From positions 1 to 48,503 of the forward strand of contig JAIYDW010000096.1 in NCBI GenBank assembly GCA_027487315.1: a stretch of DNA of 48,503 nt, written 5' to 3'. This DNA comes from Verrucomicrobiaceae bacterium. Lineage in GTDB: Bacteria > Verrucomicrobiota > Verrucomicrobiia > Verrucomicrobiales > Verrucomicrobiaceae. The notes under the pieces were generated by a model. That model did no database searches. It was not told the DNA's origin and worked only from the letters and a program-made list of their open reading frames with translations. Positions 4,269 through 34,844 of this stretch are shown piece by piece. Each line of letters opens with the position of its first letter. Within the stretch, counting starts at the first letter, position 1. A program made the position numbers and the translations under genes.

Positions 4269-5774
4269 ATGTTTTATCTCGGCATCGACAGTGGCACGCA
4301 AAGCACGAAGGCAATCGTTTTGGATCTTGAGACAGGGGCGATTTTGGCTTCGGGACATCAGAGCTATGATTTGATCGAGGGATTGCCGGCGGGGCATTTG
4401 GAGCAGCATCCGCAGTCGTGGATTGAGGCGGTGGAGGGGTCGATCACGCAGTGTTTGGAGAAGCTGGGGGTGGATCGGGGGAAGATTCGGGGGATTGGGG
4501 TGAGCGGGCAGCAGCATGGGCTGGTGGCGTTGGATGCGCAGGATCAACCGGTGCGGCCGGCGAAGTTGTGGTGTGACACGTCGACGCAGGCGCAGTGTGC
4601 GGAGATTGCGCATGAGTTTGGGGGGCAGCCGGGGGTAATTGCGCTGGCGGGCAATGCGATGCTGCCGGGTTACACGATTCCGAAGGTGCTGTGGATGAAG
4701 CAGAACGAGCCGGAAAATTTTGCCAAGACGGTTTCGATTTTATTGCCGCATGATTACATCAACTTTTGGCTGAGCGGCGTGAAACGGATGGAGTATGGCG
4801 ATGCTTCGGGGATGGGGATTTTGAATGTGAACACGCGGCAGTGGTGCCGGGAGTTGATTGATTACATCGATCCGCGGGTGCACGAGATGCTGCCGGAGTT
4901 GGGGAGCAGTCGGGTGGTGCATGGTCGCTTGCGGCCGGAGTTGGCGGCGAAGTGGGGGTTGAGTGATGATGTGGTGATTTCGGCGGGTGGCGGGGACAAC
5001 ATGATGGGGGCGATCGGGACGGGGAACATCAAGCCGGGGGTGATCACGGCGAGCTTTGGGACGAGCGGGACTTTGTATGGGGTGGCGGGGAGTCCGGTGG
5101 TGGATGGACAGGGGGAGGTGGCGGCTTTTTGCGATAGCACGGATCAGTGGCTGCCACTGGTGTGCACGATGAATGTGACGGTGGTGACGGAACAGGTGCG
5201 GGAGATGTTTGGCTGGGGTTTGGGGCAGTTGGAAGCGGCGGTGGGCAGCGCGAAGCAGGGGGCGGATGGGGTGATGTTTTTGCCGTATTTGAATGGCGAG
5301 CGGACGCCGAATCTGCCGAATGGCAGCGGGGTGATGCATGGCTTGAGGACGACGAACATGACGCCGGAGAACCTGGCGCGGGCGGCGGTGGAGGGGGCGA
5401 CGCTGGGGTTGGCGTATGGGTTGAAGCGGTTCCGGGATTTGGGGATGGATCCGTCTGAGATTCGCCTGACGGGCGGGGGGAGCAAGAGTGCTGTGTGGCG
5501 GCAGATTGCGGCGGATTGTTTCAATGCGGAAGTGGTGACGTTGTCGACTTCTGAGGGAGCGGCTTTGGGTGGGGCGATTCAGGCGGCGTATGCGCGGGCG
5601 AACGAGGGGGGGCAGGAGGAGAAGGTCAGTTACGAGACTTTGTGTGGGCGGTTGGTGGCGCTGGATGAAACGACGCGGTGTCATCCGGATTCGAAACGGG
5701 CGGCGCGGTATGCGGAGCAGTTGGAGCGTCAGATGGAGCTGACGGGGCGATTGAACCAGGTGGGGTGGCTTTGA
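4269..5774 (+). CDS. xylB: Xylulokinase, FGGY family
   Basis: Phosphorylates D-xylulose to xylulose 5-phosphate with ATP, feeding the pentose phosphate pathway; cytoplasmic. 501 residues, the usual family length. Visible features: N-terminal ATPase-fold start (MFYLGIDSGTQSTKAIVLD), the substrate-side motif GQQHGLVALD, WCDTS, and the second-domain motif GGGDNMMGAIGTG with the catalytic Asp at about residue 243. The C-terminal ATP-binding Gly-rich loop (RLTGGGSKSAVWRQIAAD) and an Ala/Gly-rich EGAALGGAIQAA follow. I took the ATG at 4269 because homologues begin exactly there; an upstream ATG at 4248 would add a tail. No clear Shine-Dalgarno sequence is present. No xylose isomerase gene is adjacent. 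The xylose transporter genes xylG and xylH lie 9 and 21 kb away on the same strand. It is convergent with aroC: the stop codons are one base apart. Confidence 0.93.
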   Translation: MFYLGIDSGTQSTKAIVLDLETGAILASGHQSYDLIEGLPAGHLEQHPQSWIEAVEGSITQCLEKLGVDRGKIRGIGVSGQQHGLVALDAQDQPVRPAKLWCDTSTQAQCAEIAHEFGGQPGVIALAGNAMLPGYTIPKVLWMKQNEPENFAKTVSILLPHDYINFWLSGVKRMEYGDASGMGILNVNTRQWCRELIDYIDPRVHEMLPELGSSRVVHGRLRPELAAKWGLSDDVVISAGGGDNMMGAIGTGNIKPGVITASFGTSGTLYGVAGSPVVDGQGEVAAFCDSTDQWLPLVCTMNVTVVTEQVREMFGWGLGQLEAAVGSAKQGADGVMFLPYLNGERTPNLPNGSGVMHGLRTTNMTPENLARAAVEGATLGLAYGLKRFRDLGMDPSEIRLTGGGSKSAVWRQIAADCFNAEVVTLSTSEGAALGGAIQAAYARANEGGQEEKVSYETLCGRLVALDETTRCHPDSKRAARYAEQLERQMELTGRLNQVGWL

Positions 5775-26540: not shown

Positions 26541-26568
26541 TATTAGTGATCGGTAATCAGTGGTCAGT
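26541..26568. repeat. Second heptanucleotide tandem repeat, overlapping the oppA stop codon
   Basis: Units TATTAGT, GATCGGT, AATCAGT and GGTCAGT on the + strand, period 7, less regular than the array at 276-303 but with the same final unit. The oppA stop codon is at 26557-26559 inside the third unit, so the protein ends TDH exactly like the unrelated peptidase at 292. Confidence 0.75.
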
Positions 26569-28203
26569 TCGAAGTTGGGGGGTGAGGTCGAGGGATTTGT
26601 AGGGGCGGTGGCTGAGGACGGAGTGGTGCCAGTTTTTGACTTCGGGGCGGATGAGGTTGGAGTTCATGCGCCAGAAGATGGGGATGATGGGCATGTCGGC
26701 GAGGAGGAGGGCTTCGGCTTCCTGCATCGCGGCGATGCGGCGGGCGGTGTTGGGCTCGCGGGTGGCGGTGAGCATGAGTTCGTCGTAGCGGGGGCTGGAC
26801 CAGCCAGTGTTGTTGTTGCCGTCGCCGGAGCGGAAGATGCCGAGGAAGGTGAAGGGGTCTGCGTAGTCGCCGACCCAGCCAGCGCGGGAGAGGTCGTAGT
26901 TGAGGGATTGCTGGGAGTCGATGTAGACTTGCCATTCCTGCTGGAGGATGCCGACTTCGATGCCGAGGTGCTTTTTCCAGCTCTCTTGGAAGAACTCGGC
27001 GATGGTGCGGGCGGTGGCGCTGGTGTTGGTGAGGATTTCCATTTTGCGGAAGCCTTTGCCGCCGGGGAATCCGGCTTCGGCGAGGAGGGTGCGGGCGGCG
27101 GTGGGATCGAAGCGGAGGATGTTGAGGGGTTTGTAGTCGGGATGGGCGCCGGGCGGGGTGAGGCCGGTGGCGGGGAGGTGACCGGAGCGGATGACTTGAT
27201 CGACGAGAGCGACGCGGTCGATGGCGAGGGCGAGGGCTTGGCGGACTTTGGGGTTGTCGAAGGGCGGGCGGGTGGTGTTGAGGCGATAGAACTCGCAGGC
27301 GAGTTCGGGGCCCTGGTGGAAGAAGGGTGGTTTGGTTTCGCGGTAGCGGGGGATTTTGGCGAGGGGGACGGTGTAAGTGATGTGGAGTTGGCCGTCGAGG
27401 AAGACGCGTTCTTCGGATTCGGGGTTGTCGATGGGGAAGAAGTGGATGGCGTTGAGTTTGGTGGTGGCGGCGTCCCAGTAGCGGGGATTTTTTTCGACGG
27501 CGATGAAGTGGTTGATGCGCCAGTCTTTGAGGGTGAAGGGGCCGCTGGAGACGATGTGGCCGGGTCTGGCCCAGGGGGTGTCGCGGGTGGTCATGGTGCC
27601 GAAGCGTTCGATGACGTGGCGGGGGACGGGGAACCAGGTGTAGTGTTTGAGCATGCCCGGGAAGTAGGGGGCGGGGCCTTCGAGGGTGAGGATGAGGCGA
27701 TGGGGGCTGGGGGTGGTGACGCCGACGGTGGAGAATTCTTTGGTTTTGCCGCTGTGGAACTGGGCGGCGCCTTTGAGGAGGTAGAGCATTTCGGCGTAGG
27801 GGGAGCCGAGTTCGGGGGAGAGGATGCGCTGGAAGGAGTAGAGGTAGTCGGCTGAGGTGATGGGGGTGCCATCGCTCCACGTGGCGTCCGGGCGGAGTTC
27901 GAAGGTCCAGGTTTGGAAGTCGGGACTTTGCCAGGAGGTGGCGAGGCCGGGGGCGTCGAGGTCAGGGTTAGCGGGGTCGGGTGCGACGAGGCCTTCGAAG
28001 AGGGAGGTGATGACCCAGTGTTCGGGCTGGCCGGTGACGACATGGGGATCCAGGGACTGGATGTCGGTGCCATTGCCGATAAGAAGGGTGCGGGAGGTGG
28101 CGGCGGATGCGACACGCTGGGGGCGATTTTTGCCGTGGTGATGGAGAGCTGCGAAGATGCCGAGAAGCAGCAGAGGGAGCAGTAGACGGGCAATCCAGGA
28201 CAT
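26557..28203 (-). CDS. Oligopeptide ABC transporter substrate-binding protein (SBP_bac_5, OppA-like)
   Basis: 548 residues from ATG 28203. An N-terminal hydrophobic anchor (MSWIARLLLPLLLLGIFAAL) has no lipobox cysteine, so the protein is either anchored by this segment or cleaved. The body shows the family stretches IQSLDPHVVTGQPEHWVI, LRPDATWSDGTPITSADYLY with SFQRILSPE, VRQALALAIDRVALVDQVI, and NNNTGWSSPRYDELMLTATR. It captures peptides for an Opp-type permease, which is not adjacent; an OppC permease begins at the left edge of the window. Just upstream lies a 173-bp palindrome (28212-28384), so its 5' leader may be highly structured. The open frame continues upstream through that palindrome but reads as non-coding. 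Confidence 0.92.
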   Translation of the reverse strand: MSWIARLLLPLLLLGIFAALHHHGKNRPQRVASAATSRTLLIGNGTDIQSLDPHVVTGQPEHWVITSLFEGLVAPDPANPDLDAPGLATSWQSPDFQTWTFELRPDATWSDGTPITSADYLYSFQRILSPELGSPYAEMLYLLKGAAQFHSGKTKEFSTVGVTTPSPHRLILTLEGPAPYFPGMLKHYTWFPVPRHVIERFGTMTTRDTPWARPGHIVSSGPFTLKDWRINHFIAVEKNPRYWDAATTKLNAIHFFPIDNPESEERVFLDGQLHITYTVPLAKIPRYRETKPPFFHQGPELACEFYRLNTTRPPFDNPKVRQALALAIDRVALVDQVIRSGHLPATGLTPPGAHPDYKPLNILRFDPTAARTLLAEAGFPGGKGFRKMEILTNTSATARTIAEFFQESWKKHLGIEVGILQQEWQVYIDSQQSLNYDLSRAGWVGDYADPFTFLGIFRSGDGNNNTGWSSPRYDELMLTATREPNTARRIAAMQEAEALLLADMPIIPIFWRMNSNLIRPEVKNWHHSVLSHRPYKSLDLTPQLRTDH

Positions 28204-28211
28204 GGGGAGAA

Positions 28212-28384
28212 TTGAACCCGAACTCCTCGATTGGAAGCGGCCCATCCGCAACCTCCATTGCGGTTCCAAGGCTTCGCAGCTCTTGCCCGGTATCGATCAG
28301 ATACAGGGACTGCGAGCCGCAAAGCCTTGGAACCGCAAGCGAGGCAGCGCCTGAGCGACTTCGAATTGTGGAATCCGGGTTGAA
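28212..28384. repeat. 173-bp imperfect palindrome (MITE-like or structured RNA), copy 1
   Basis: Centred on 28298. Perfect 17-bp arms TTGCGGTTCCAAGGCTT (28258-28274) and its complement (28322-28338). Inside them CGCAG/CTGCG, CCC/GGG and GTATC/GATAC around a GATCA loop. Outside them TTGAACCCG (28212-28220) pairs with CGGGTTGAA (28376-28384) with one mismatch, and GAAG/CTTC and other blocks pair in between. It fills most of the 336-base gap between oppA and the S11 gene, and nothing coding is visible in it. The core resembles the palindrome at 34680-34844. Confidence 0.8.
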
Positions 28385-28539
28385 GGTGGGGAGGGAGTGG
28401 GAGGCAGGGACGATATGGGGTGGAATTGGTGCTTCGTGGTTTGACAAGTGGGTGGAGCGGGTCTTTTTGACGGGTGCGCGGAGGGTGACGCTGCCTCTGC
28501 ATGAGCTCTTAATTGTTTTTGATGATGCCTGATTTGTTT

Positions 28540-29658
28540 ATGAGCCGTTTTGGGCTGCTGGGTGCGGCGATGATTGGGGTGTTGGGATTGACGGCGTGCG
28601 GGAGTGGGGCATCGGGTCAGGGAAGTGGCACGCAGTATCATCCTTCGATGAGTTACGGGCCGACGGGATTGCCGGCGGGGAGTTATGCGACGCCGGGGGT
28701 GATGAGTCCGTATGGGCAGCCGCGACCAATGGCTCCGGCTCAGGCCGCTCCGACGATGGCGGGGAGGGATCCGTATCCGGCGGGGATGCAGGTGGCGCGG
28801 GTGAGTGGGGCGGCGCCGGTGATTCGGGCGGCTTCGTATTTGTTGATTGATGCGCGGACAGGGGCGCATTTGGCATCGAGCAATCCGGATCAGCGGCGGG
28901 CGGTGGCGAGCACGCAGAAGCTATTGACGGCGCTGGTGGTTTTGGATGCGGGGAATTTGGACAAGGTGGTGACGATTCAGTCGACGGATGCGCAGGTGGA
29001 GCCGACGCGGTTGGGGCTTGGGGCGGGGCAGAGGTACACGAGGCGGAATCTGCTGAATGCGGTGTTGATCAAGAGTGCGAACGATGTGGCGAAGGCGTTG
29101 GCGCGGGACAATGCGGGGAGTTCGGCGGCGTTTGCGGAGAGGATGAATGCGAAGATGCGGCAGTTGGGCGGAACGTCGTCGAATTTCAGAAATCCGCATG
29201 GGTTGACGGAGCCGGGGCAGTATTCGACGGCGCGGAACATGGCGCGGGTGGCGATGGCGGCTTATCGGAGTTCGGTGATTCGGGAGGCGGTGGCGAAGCG
29301 GTATTACCGGTTCACGTTCAACAGCGGGAAGAGTGTGACCCTGGAGAATACGAACAAGCTGCTGGGGACGATGGGGGCGTGCAATGGGATGAAGACGGGG
29401 TACACTGTGGCGAGCGGGCGGTGTTTGATTTCTTCGGCGTCGGCTGGGGGGCGGGATGTGATTTTGGTGCAGTTGGGAACGAAGACGCAGTATATCTTCA
29501 ATGATGCGCGGACGCTGATGACGTGGGGATTGCGTCAGTTGGGAGCGAATGTGGCGGAGGCGGAGGTGACCGAGGAGCATGGCCTGACGGCGATGCTGGA
29601 GGACGAGCCGTCTGAAATCAGCGGGGCGGGCGATGGTGAGGCGGTGGTCGTTCCGTGA
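28540..29658 (+). CDS. D-alanyl-D-alanine carboxypeptidase family protein (peptidase S11), lipoprotein
   Basis: Trims or cleaves peptidoglycan stem peptides outside the inner membrane. 372 residues. Signal with lipobox LTAC (MSRFGLLGAAMIGVLGLTAC, cysteine at 20), a Gly/Pro/Met-rich linker (to about 90), then the S11 core. The three active-site motifs are intact: Ser124-x-x-Lys (STQK), Ser179-x-Asn (SAN) and Lys285-Thr-Gly. The C-terminal PBP5-type beta domain is missing; an acidic tail replaces it. In-frame ATGs at 28522 and 28525 are alternative starts, but 28540 gives the best signal. It lies downstream of the 173-bp palindrome and 69 nt upstream of msrB. Confidence 0.9.
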   Translation: MSRFGLLGAAMIGVLGLTACGSGASGQGSGTQYHPSMSYGPTGLPAGSYATPGVMSPYGQPRPMAPAQAAPTMAGRDPYPAGMQVARVSGAAPVIRAASYLLIDARTGAHLASSNPDQRRAVASTQKLLTALVVLDAGNLDKVVTIQSTDAQVEPTRLGLGAGQRYTRRNLLNAVLIKSANDVAKALARDNAGSSAAFAERMNAKMRQLGGTSSNFRNPHGLTEPGQYSTARNMARVAMAAYRSSVIREAVAKRYYRFTFNSGKSVTLENTNKLLGTMGACNGMKTGYTVASGRCLISSASAGGRDVILVQLGTKTQYIFNDARTLMTWGLRQLGANVAEAEVTEEHGLTAMLEDEPSEISGAGDGEAVVVP

Positions 29659-34679: not shown

Positions 34680-34844
34680 GACCGACTCTCGAAATGCTTG
34701 TCACCTTGCCCGGCGGCGGAGCAGCCTCATTTGCTACATCAGCCGCTTGCCCGCTATTGATTGAATAGCGGGCTGCACGACTTCCTTGCAACTTAGGCCG
34801 CTGCGCTCGCCGGATCCAAATGACAATCTTTTCGAGAACCGGTC
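34680..34844. repeat. 165-bp imperfect palindrome, copy 2
   Basis: Centred near 34762. Outer arms 34680-34703 and 34821-34844 are complementary at 20 of 24 positions. The core is a perfect 10-bp stem GCCCGCTATT (34749-34758) / AATAGCGGGC (34764-34773) with loop GATTG. Middle blocks (CCGGCG, GCCT, TTGC) also pair. The core CTTGCCCG-TAT-GAT-ATA-GGG-CTGC is shared with copy 1 at 28282-28313. It begins seven bases after the tcdA stop and ends three bases before a strong terminator, so a transcribed form would be a structured 3' UTR or small RNA. Confidence 0.78.

Follow-up and report, generated by a model that had tools for sequence, protein, structure and literature searches.

A new family of palindromic MITEs, probably of the IS1380 type, in Verrucomicrobiaceae, with one copy in front of an oppA-like gene

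Introduction

The window, i.e., the whole 48.5-kb stretch of Verrucomicrobiaceae DNA analyzed here, carries a long palindrome directly upstream of an oppA-like gene (28212-28384). Such a hairpin next to a start codon raises the question of whether it acts on the expression of its neighbor or was brought there by transposition. The original prediction, made from the sequence, had named both origins, a MITE- or REPIN-type element on the one hand and an RNA with a role in oppA expression on the other.

Results

The palindrome was imperfect, centered on 28298, and ranked top of its length in the window. Its arms (28212-28282 and 28314-28384, 71 nt each) were 76% complementary. A scan of all window centers at a half-width of 84 gave 56 complementary positions at 28298, the top value (next 40; mean 19.7, sd 4.4), bearing out the single center that had been predicted. 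The perfect 17-bp inner arms (TTGCGGTTCCAAGGCTT, 28258-28274 with 28322-28338) and the GTATC-GATCA-GATAC tip were both present as described, and this inner part (28258-28338, minus strand) included a conserved internal loop in which GCA faces CAA. Folding of 28205-28390 as RNA, a check proposed with the prediction, yielded -95.7 kcal/mol on the plus strand (z -6.9) and -111 kcal/mol on the minus strand, which is the oppA sense (z -9.8), with no shuffled sequence folding as well on either strand. No Rfam family matched the element at its gathering score, the sole match being mir-2300 (26.6 bits vs a gathering score of 90).

The element proper spanned 28217-28379 (163 bp, minus strand, subfamily fam1A, CCCGGATTCC...GAGTTCGGG), because the five outer bases on each side (28212-28216 and 28380-28384) are duplicated target DNA, TTGAA. 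The window copy was 94% identical to the family consensus and scored 189 bits with the covariance model. Copies and their alignment displayed terminal inverted repeats of about 16 bp beginning CC and ending GG, the left one CCCGGATTCCACAATT (28364-28379, minus strand) and the right one CCCGAACTCCTCGATT (28217-28232, plus strand), with CCCGGATTCC and CCCGAACTCC as outermost bases and the whole element palindromic. No transposase gene was found within the 163 bp or adjoining them in the window.

The element lay between an oppA-like gene for a solute-binding protein (SBP_bac_5, 26557-28203, minus strand), downstream of it, and a divergent D-Ala-D-Ala carboxypeptidase-like gene (Peptidase_S11, 28522-29658, plus strand). 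Its predicted nearness to the oppA start held, the distance being 8 bp rather than nine bases (ATG at 28203-28201, minus strand). A second palindromic repeat, of the related family fam2 (GACCGGTTCTCG...GAGTCGGTC), was located at 34680-34844 on the minus strand. This family was more numerous, with dozens of copies per genome that were often flanked by TA, and it also had one better-folding strand.

Copies of the element were abundant in three closely related Verrucomicrobiaceae genomes, namely the window's own genome (G000) and two genomes of the same genus (G001 and G003). BLAST retrieved 11, 21, and 19 matches, respectively, and none in G002 or 53 other relatives. A covariance model of 72 pairs, built from 23 copies, returned 42, 39, and 47 rows among the best 50 candidates per genome. 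Because antisense matches gave some copies an additional row and scoring was limited to 50 candidates per genome, each of the three genomes can fairly be taken to contain at least about 30 copies. The many copies that the prediction had proposed to look for were thereby found in its own and in related genomes. A search of the named GTDB collection for the exact core gave two MAGs only, both from Verrucomicrobiaceae (CE-Jul18-43 and D15.bin.11), which correspond to G001 and G003. The covariance model also found copies in other genera, with the highest number in G063 (38 hits). A pattern scan of viral contigs gave no matches. Several copies sat at contig ends (G063:C46:1-159, G063:C97:4-172, G003:C250:1-166, and G000:C69:1-124), so that these repeats fragment assemblies, and the copy counts are too low.

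Some copies showed particular arrangements. In G001 (C40, 4252-4594), a fam1 palindrome had a fam3 palindrome inserted into its hairpin tip; the same nesting occurred in G000 (C10, from about 6094), where the second half of the fam1 copy was absent. Two copies about 0.7 kb apart on G003:C245 shared the same flanks, apparently after a local duplication. On G001:C14 (about 4330-4420), a pyrH-like reading frame appeared to begin inside the remnant of a copy. Two loci of G079 (L310 and L311) displayed fam1 ends (CCCGGATTCCGCGATT) around an unrelated interior (about 165 bp), with NTNAN-like duplications at the flanks.

Comparison of filled and empty sites displayed insertion with duplication of 5 bp. 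At the empty site of the window copy in G001 (contig C190), the flanks aligned without gaps across a single TTGAA (235 of 253 positions identical), and G003 carried the orthologous insertion (L047) within flanks that were 96% identical. Three further insertions of G003 (L051, L049, and L045) had empty counterparts in G000 or G001, the cleanest being L049, at ATGAA. Across 41 copies the duplications fell at NTNAN targets, 172 of 205 letters being identical between the two sides vs 110.5 in shuffled pairs (maximum 136), and 18 duplications were perfect over 5 bp vs 2.2 after shuffling. Side-to-side matches at positions 1, 3, and 5 numbered 31, 36, and 35 (shuffled 13.8, 12.0, and 15.9), and these per-position statistics displaced a 3-bp TNA duplication that had been considered. 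The duplication overlapped the stop codon of a neighboring gene at L021, L045, L051, and L054; as TNA reads TAA or TGA on one strand, an insertion at a stop codon leaves the reading frame closed. L009, L010, L045, and L049 each lay just after an intrinsic-terminator-like sequence. With four copies each, these placements are no more than suggestive of a possible preference for terminators or stop codons.

Complete IS1380-family elements shared ends and target with the palindromes. One element of 1505 bp in G063 (L262) had perfect 14-bp ends (CCCGGATTCCGAAG, continued by TT), a TTAAA duplication, and a transposase of 468 aa scoring 257 bits to NF033539 (IS1380; cut-off 180). Its ends matched over 14-16 nt only in the sister subfamilies fam1B and famD, which share CCCGGATTCCGAAGTT, and over 10 nt (CCCGGATTCC) in the window copy itself. 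Three other complete elements of 1744-1759 bp (L253, L254, and L248) had ends CCTAAAAACG..AATGG (CCTAAAA..AATGG) and duplications CTAAT, TTAAT, and TTGAT. The transposase of L248 is considered a divergent IS1380 relative because its score (128 bits) falls below the curated cut-off, and the fam3 ends (CCTAAAAACGGAAATGG) agreed with those of L248 at 15 of 17 positions. All four duplications were in agreement with the NTNAN target and the 5-bp length found for the palindromes. IS1380-type element and palindromes occurred together in one genome in both G063 and G083.

No IS1380 transposase was found in the draft genomes G000 and G003, and G001 had a weak match with different ends. Hits to PF13701 in G028 and G001 were discarded as the mover, both belonging to another IS with ends ...AATGGCACTTGATTAAG. 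A search for an autonomous element with fam1 ends in G000, G001, G003, and G028 gave 20 regions with a CCYRGATTC end beside TNA and no partner end 1-4 kb away. Regions beside partial copies encoded housekeeping genes and no transposase, and there was none among the ORFs listed beside end-only matches. A MITE of this type need not share its genome with the transposase, and the absence in G000 and G003 could reflect loss of the transposase or non-assembly of a multicopy IS, the latter because several palindrome copies sit at contig ends.

One strand of the hairpin appeared to be favored at the family level. With each position paired to its mirror and without folding, the fam1A consensus stem contained 11 G·T pairs, and A·C pairs were absent. 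Under symmetric mismatch scoring, G·T to A·C amounted to 11:2 in fam1A, 6:2 in fam2, 7:2 in fam3, and 7:2 in famD, the two A·C of fam1A lying within the conserved internal loop near the tip. The fam1 consensus held fixed mismatches at positions 19, 31-32, and 42-43 and folded at -131 kcal/mol vs -97 on the opposite strand. For hits found by the covariance model only, the strand was picked by the model, and their fold asymmetry is therefore not independent evidence. Between subfamilies, 28 stem pairs had changed on both sides (17.4 when shuffled, 11-20 when slid), so that the paired changes that the prediction had asked about were seen at the family level. Mutations private to single copies showed no preference for G·T (49 making G·T and 62 making A·C) nor for keeping pairs, and the two orthologous copies at oppA (L019 and L047) differed at three positions, two of which break pairs. 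C-to-T mutation bias was dismissed as the source of G·T, no such bias being seen among private mutations. Covariation together with unbiased private mutations indicates that the structure is kept in the spreading lineage and decays neutrally after insertion.

Discussion

The repeats constitute a new palindromic MITE family of the IS1380 type. The MITE origin first proposed has gained from the many copies, the 163-bp length (MITEs measure about 70-300 bp), the 5-bp duplication, a relative in which the site is empty, and termini that recur unchanged in complete IS1380-family elements. With ends and target shared in this way, DDE transposases of the IS1380 type acting in trans are the most likely movers of these MITEs, and we infer from the sequence comparisons that this class also moved the window copy. 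We are rather confident that the element is a non-autonomous MITE mobilized in trans by an IS1380-family DDE transposase, with a hairpin that would serve propagation rather than oppA regulation.

An accident of chance or assembly accounts for the palindrome with only negligible probability. The relatives are draft, metagenome-derived genomes; against this, the independent genome G003 has the identical insertion point within flanks 96% alike, G001 holds the empty site, and the fold stands at z -9.8 from shuffled sequences. Nor is the element at all likely to be a REPIN, i.e., a pair of REP sequences mobilized by a Y1 tyrosine transposase (RAYT), so that this part of the original prediction was abandoned. 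The genome does encode Y1 transposases, and one of their genes is only about 1.3 kb away from a copy of the element (L005), but in this one RAYT neighborhood examined (G000:C10) the gene has a different flanking repeat (GGAGGACAGGTCTCCCGACCTGTC...). In addition, the GTAG tag is absent, the ends being CCCG..CGGG next to TTGAA, and 163 bp compares with two REPs of 20-40 bp each. The 5-bp duplication seen against the empty site contradicts this origin as well, since Y1 transposition is not known to make one. A RAYT-like Y1 gene (L015, G000:C10:27975-31199) was flanked by its own repeat, GGAGGACAGGTCTCCCGACCTGTCAACGGCCAGCGGACTTTCCAGTCCGCC, unrelated to the palindromes.

That the hairpin functions as an RNA leader and regulates oppA, for instance through RNase III processing or sequestration of the start region, seems very improbable, even if it stands 8 bp from the ATG in the orientation of stronger folding (-111 kcal/mol) and RNAs of MITEs such as ERIC can change mRNA stability (PMC2229807). 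G001 lacks the element and keeps this gene pair, pairing is lost at two of the three positions where the orthologous copies differ, private mutations are not biased toward pair-keeping changes, and copies have no fixed orientation to neighboring genes. An orientation bias, sought as a sign of RNA function, was found nowhere among the copies. The expression role first suggested for oppA thus gives way to an inserted hairpin, sister species keeping the gene pair with or without it. As to the predicted shaping of the leader, the element may be part of it; any effect would be hypothetical, and the relative lacking the element retains the arrangement.

More room is left for a structured RNA gene, or a single-stranded-DNA element, that is itself mobile; its functional product would be the hairpin strand, merely carried by ends of the IS1380 type. 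The G·T excess of fam1A and the like trend in fam2, fam3, and famD favor it, as do the covarying stem, the mismatches conserved at fixed positions, and the related interior hairpins of families with different ends. With no Rfam match at gathering score and no visible constraint on individual copies, we nevertheless regard it as unlikely. Slightly better placed, and still doubtful, is the proposal that this Verrucomicrobiaceae superfamily of IS1380-type MITEs spreads via one strand folding into a hairpin of about 165 nt (with G·T rather than A·C, and fixed mismatches), selection acting on a strand-specific ssDNA or RNA form. We know of no strand-specific single-stranded step in DDE transposons, which use double-stranded ends.

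For the IS1380-type MITE that we favor, the CC...GG ends would be putative binding and cleavage sites of the transposase supplied in trans, which would insert the 163-bp unit into NTNAN and duplicate those 5 bp. The hairpin body would be retained in the spreading lineage, single inserted copies losing the constraint. As the structure is kept in the lineage and not in individual copies, we infer that the hairpin most likely serves propagation, possibly by way of a folded single strand or a folded transcript that reads through the element. At oppA, the element would simply lengthen the divergent intergenic region, probably within the mRNA leader.

For a phylum in which few MITEs are described, these repeats represent an abundant superfamily, linked by ends, target, and duplication to a named family of transposases. 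Setting lineage-level covariation against neutral decay of single copies separates what is needed to spread from what benefits the host, a distinction yet to be drawn for ERIC, YPAL, and NEMIS elements, and advises caution before such hairpins are taken for regulatory leaders. Most deserving of specialist attention is the structure that is strand-specific and kept at the level of the lineage.

A literature search found no IS1380-linked palindromic MITE. Among known systems, ISEcp1 of the IS1380 family has the left end CCTAGATTCTACGT and 5-bp duplications (PMC7864471). As in ISEcp1 and its relatives, the ends here begin with CC, the fam3-type copies of G028 starting with CCTAGATTC. Ends and NTNAN target are shared with the Verrucomicrobiales IS1380 elements, from which the palindromes differ by lacking a transposase gene, by their size (163 bp vs 1.5-1.8 kb), and by being nearly entirely one palindrome. 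MITEPye1, an IS1182-type MITE of Paracoccus yeei with 1-3 copies per chromosome, is similarly small and intergenic, with terminal and direct repeats, no transposase, one long stem-loop, and ends matching an IS (PMC11578231); it belongs to another IS family, dozens of copies occur here, and the available excerpt of that report describes no strand-specific covariation. REP and REPIN sequences are likewise dispersed, hairpin-forming palindromes, whereas the GTAG tag, the small REP units, and the Y1 transposase of the RAYT system are all missing here. YPAL/RU-2 of Yersinia and ERIC (RU-1) resemble the present family in being palindromic, intergenic, and of similar size (about 127-168 bp), with transcripts that can affect mRNA stability (PMC2229807) and, for YPAL, known empty and filled sites. 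They differ from it in that duplications of YPAL range between 3 and 26 bp and ERIC has TA at its ends, while the family described here combines a constant 5-bp NTNAN duplication with CC...GG ends.
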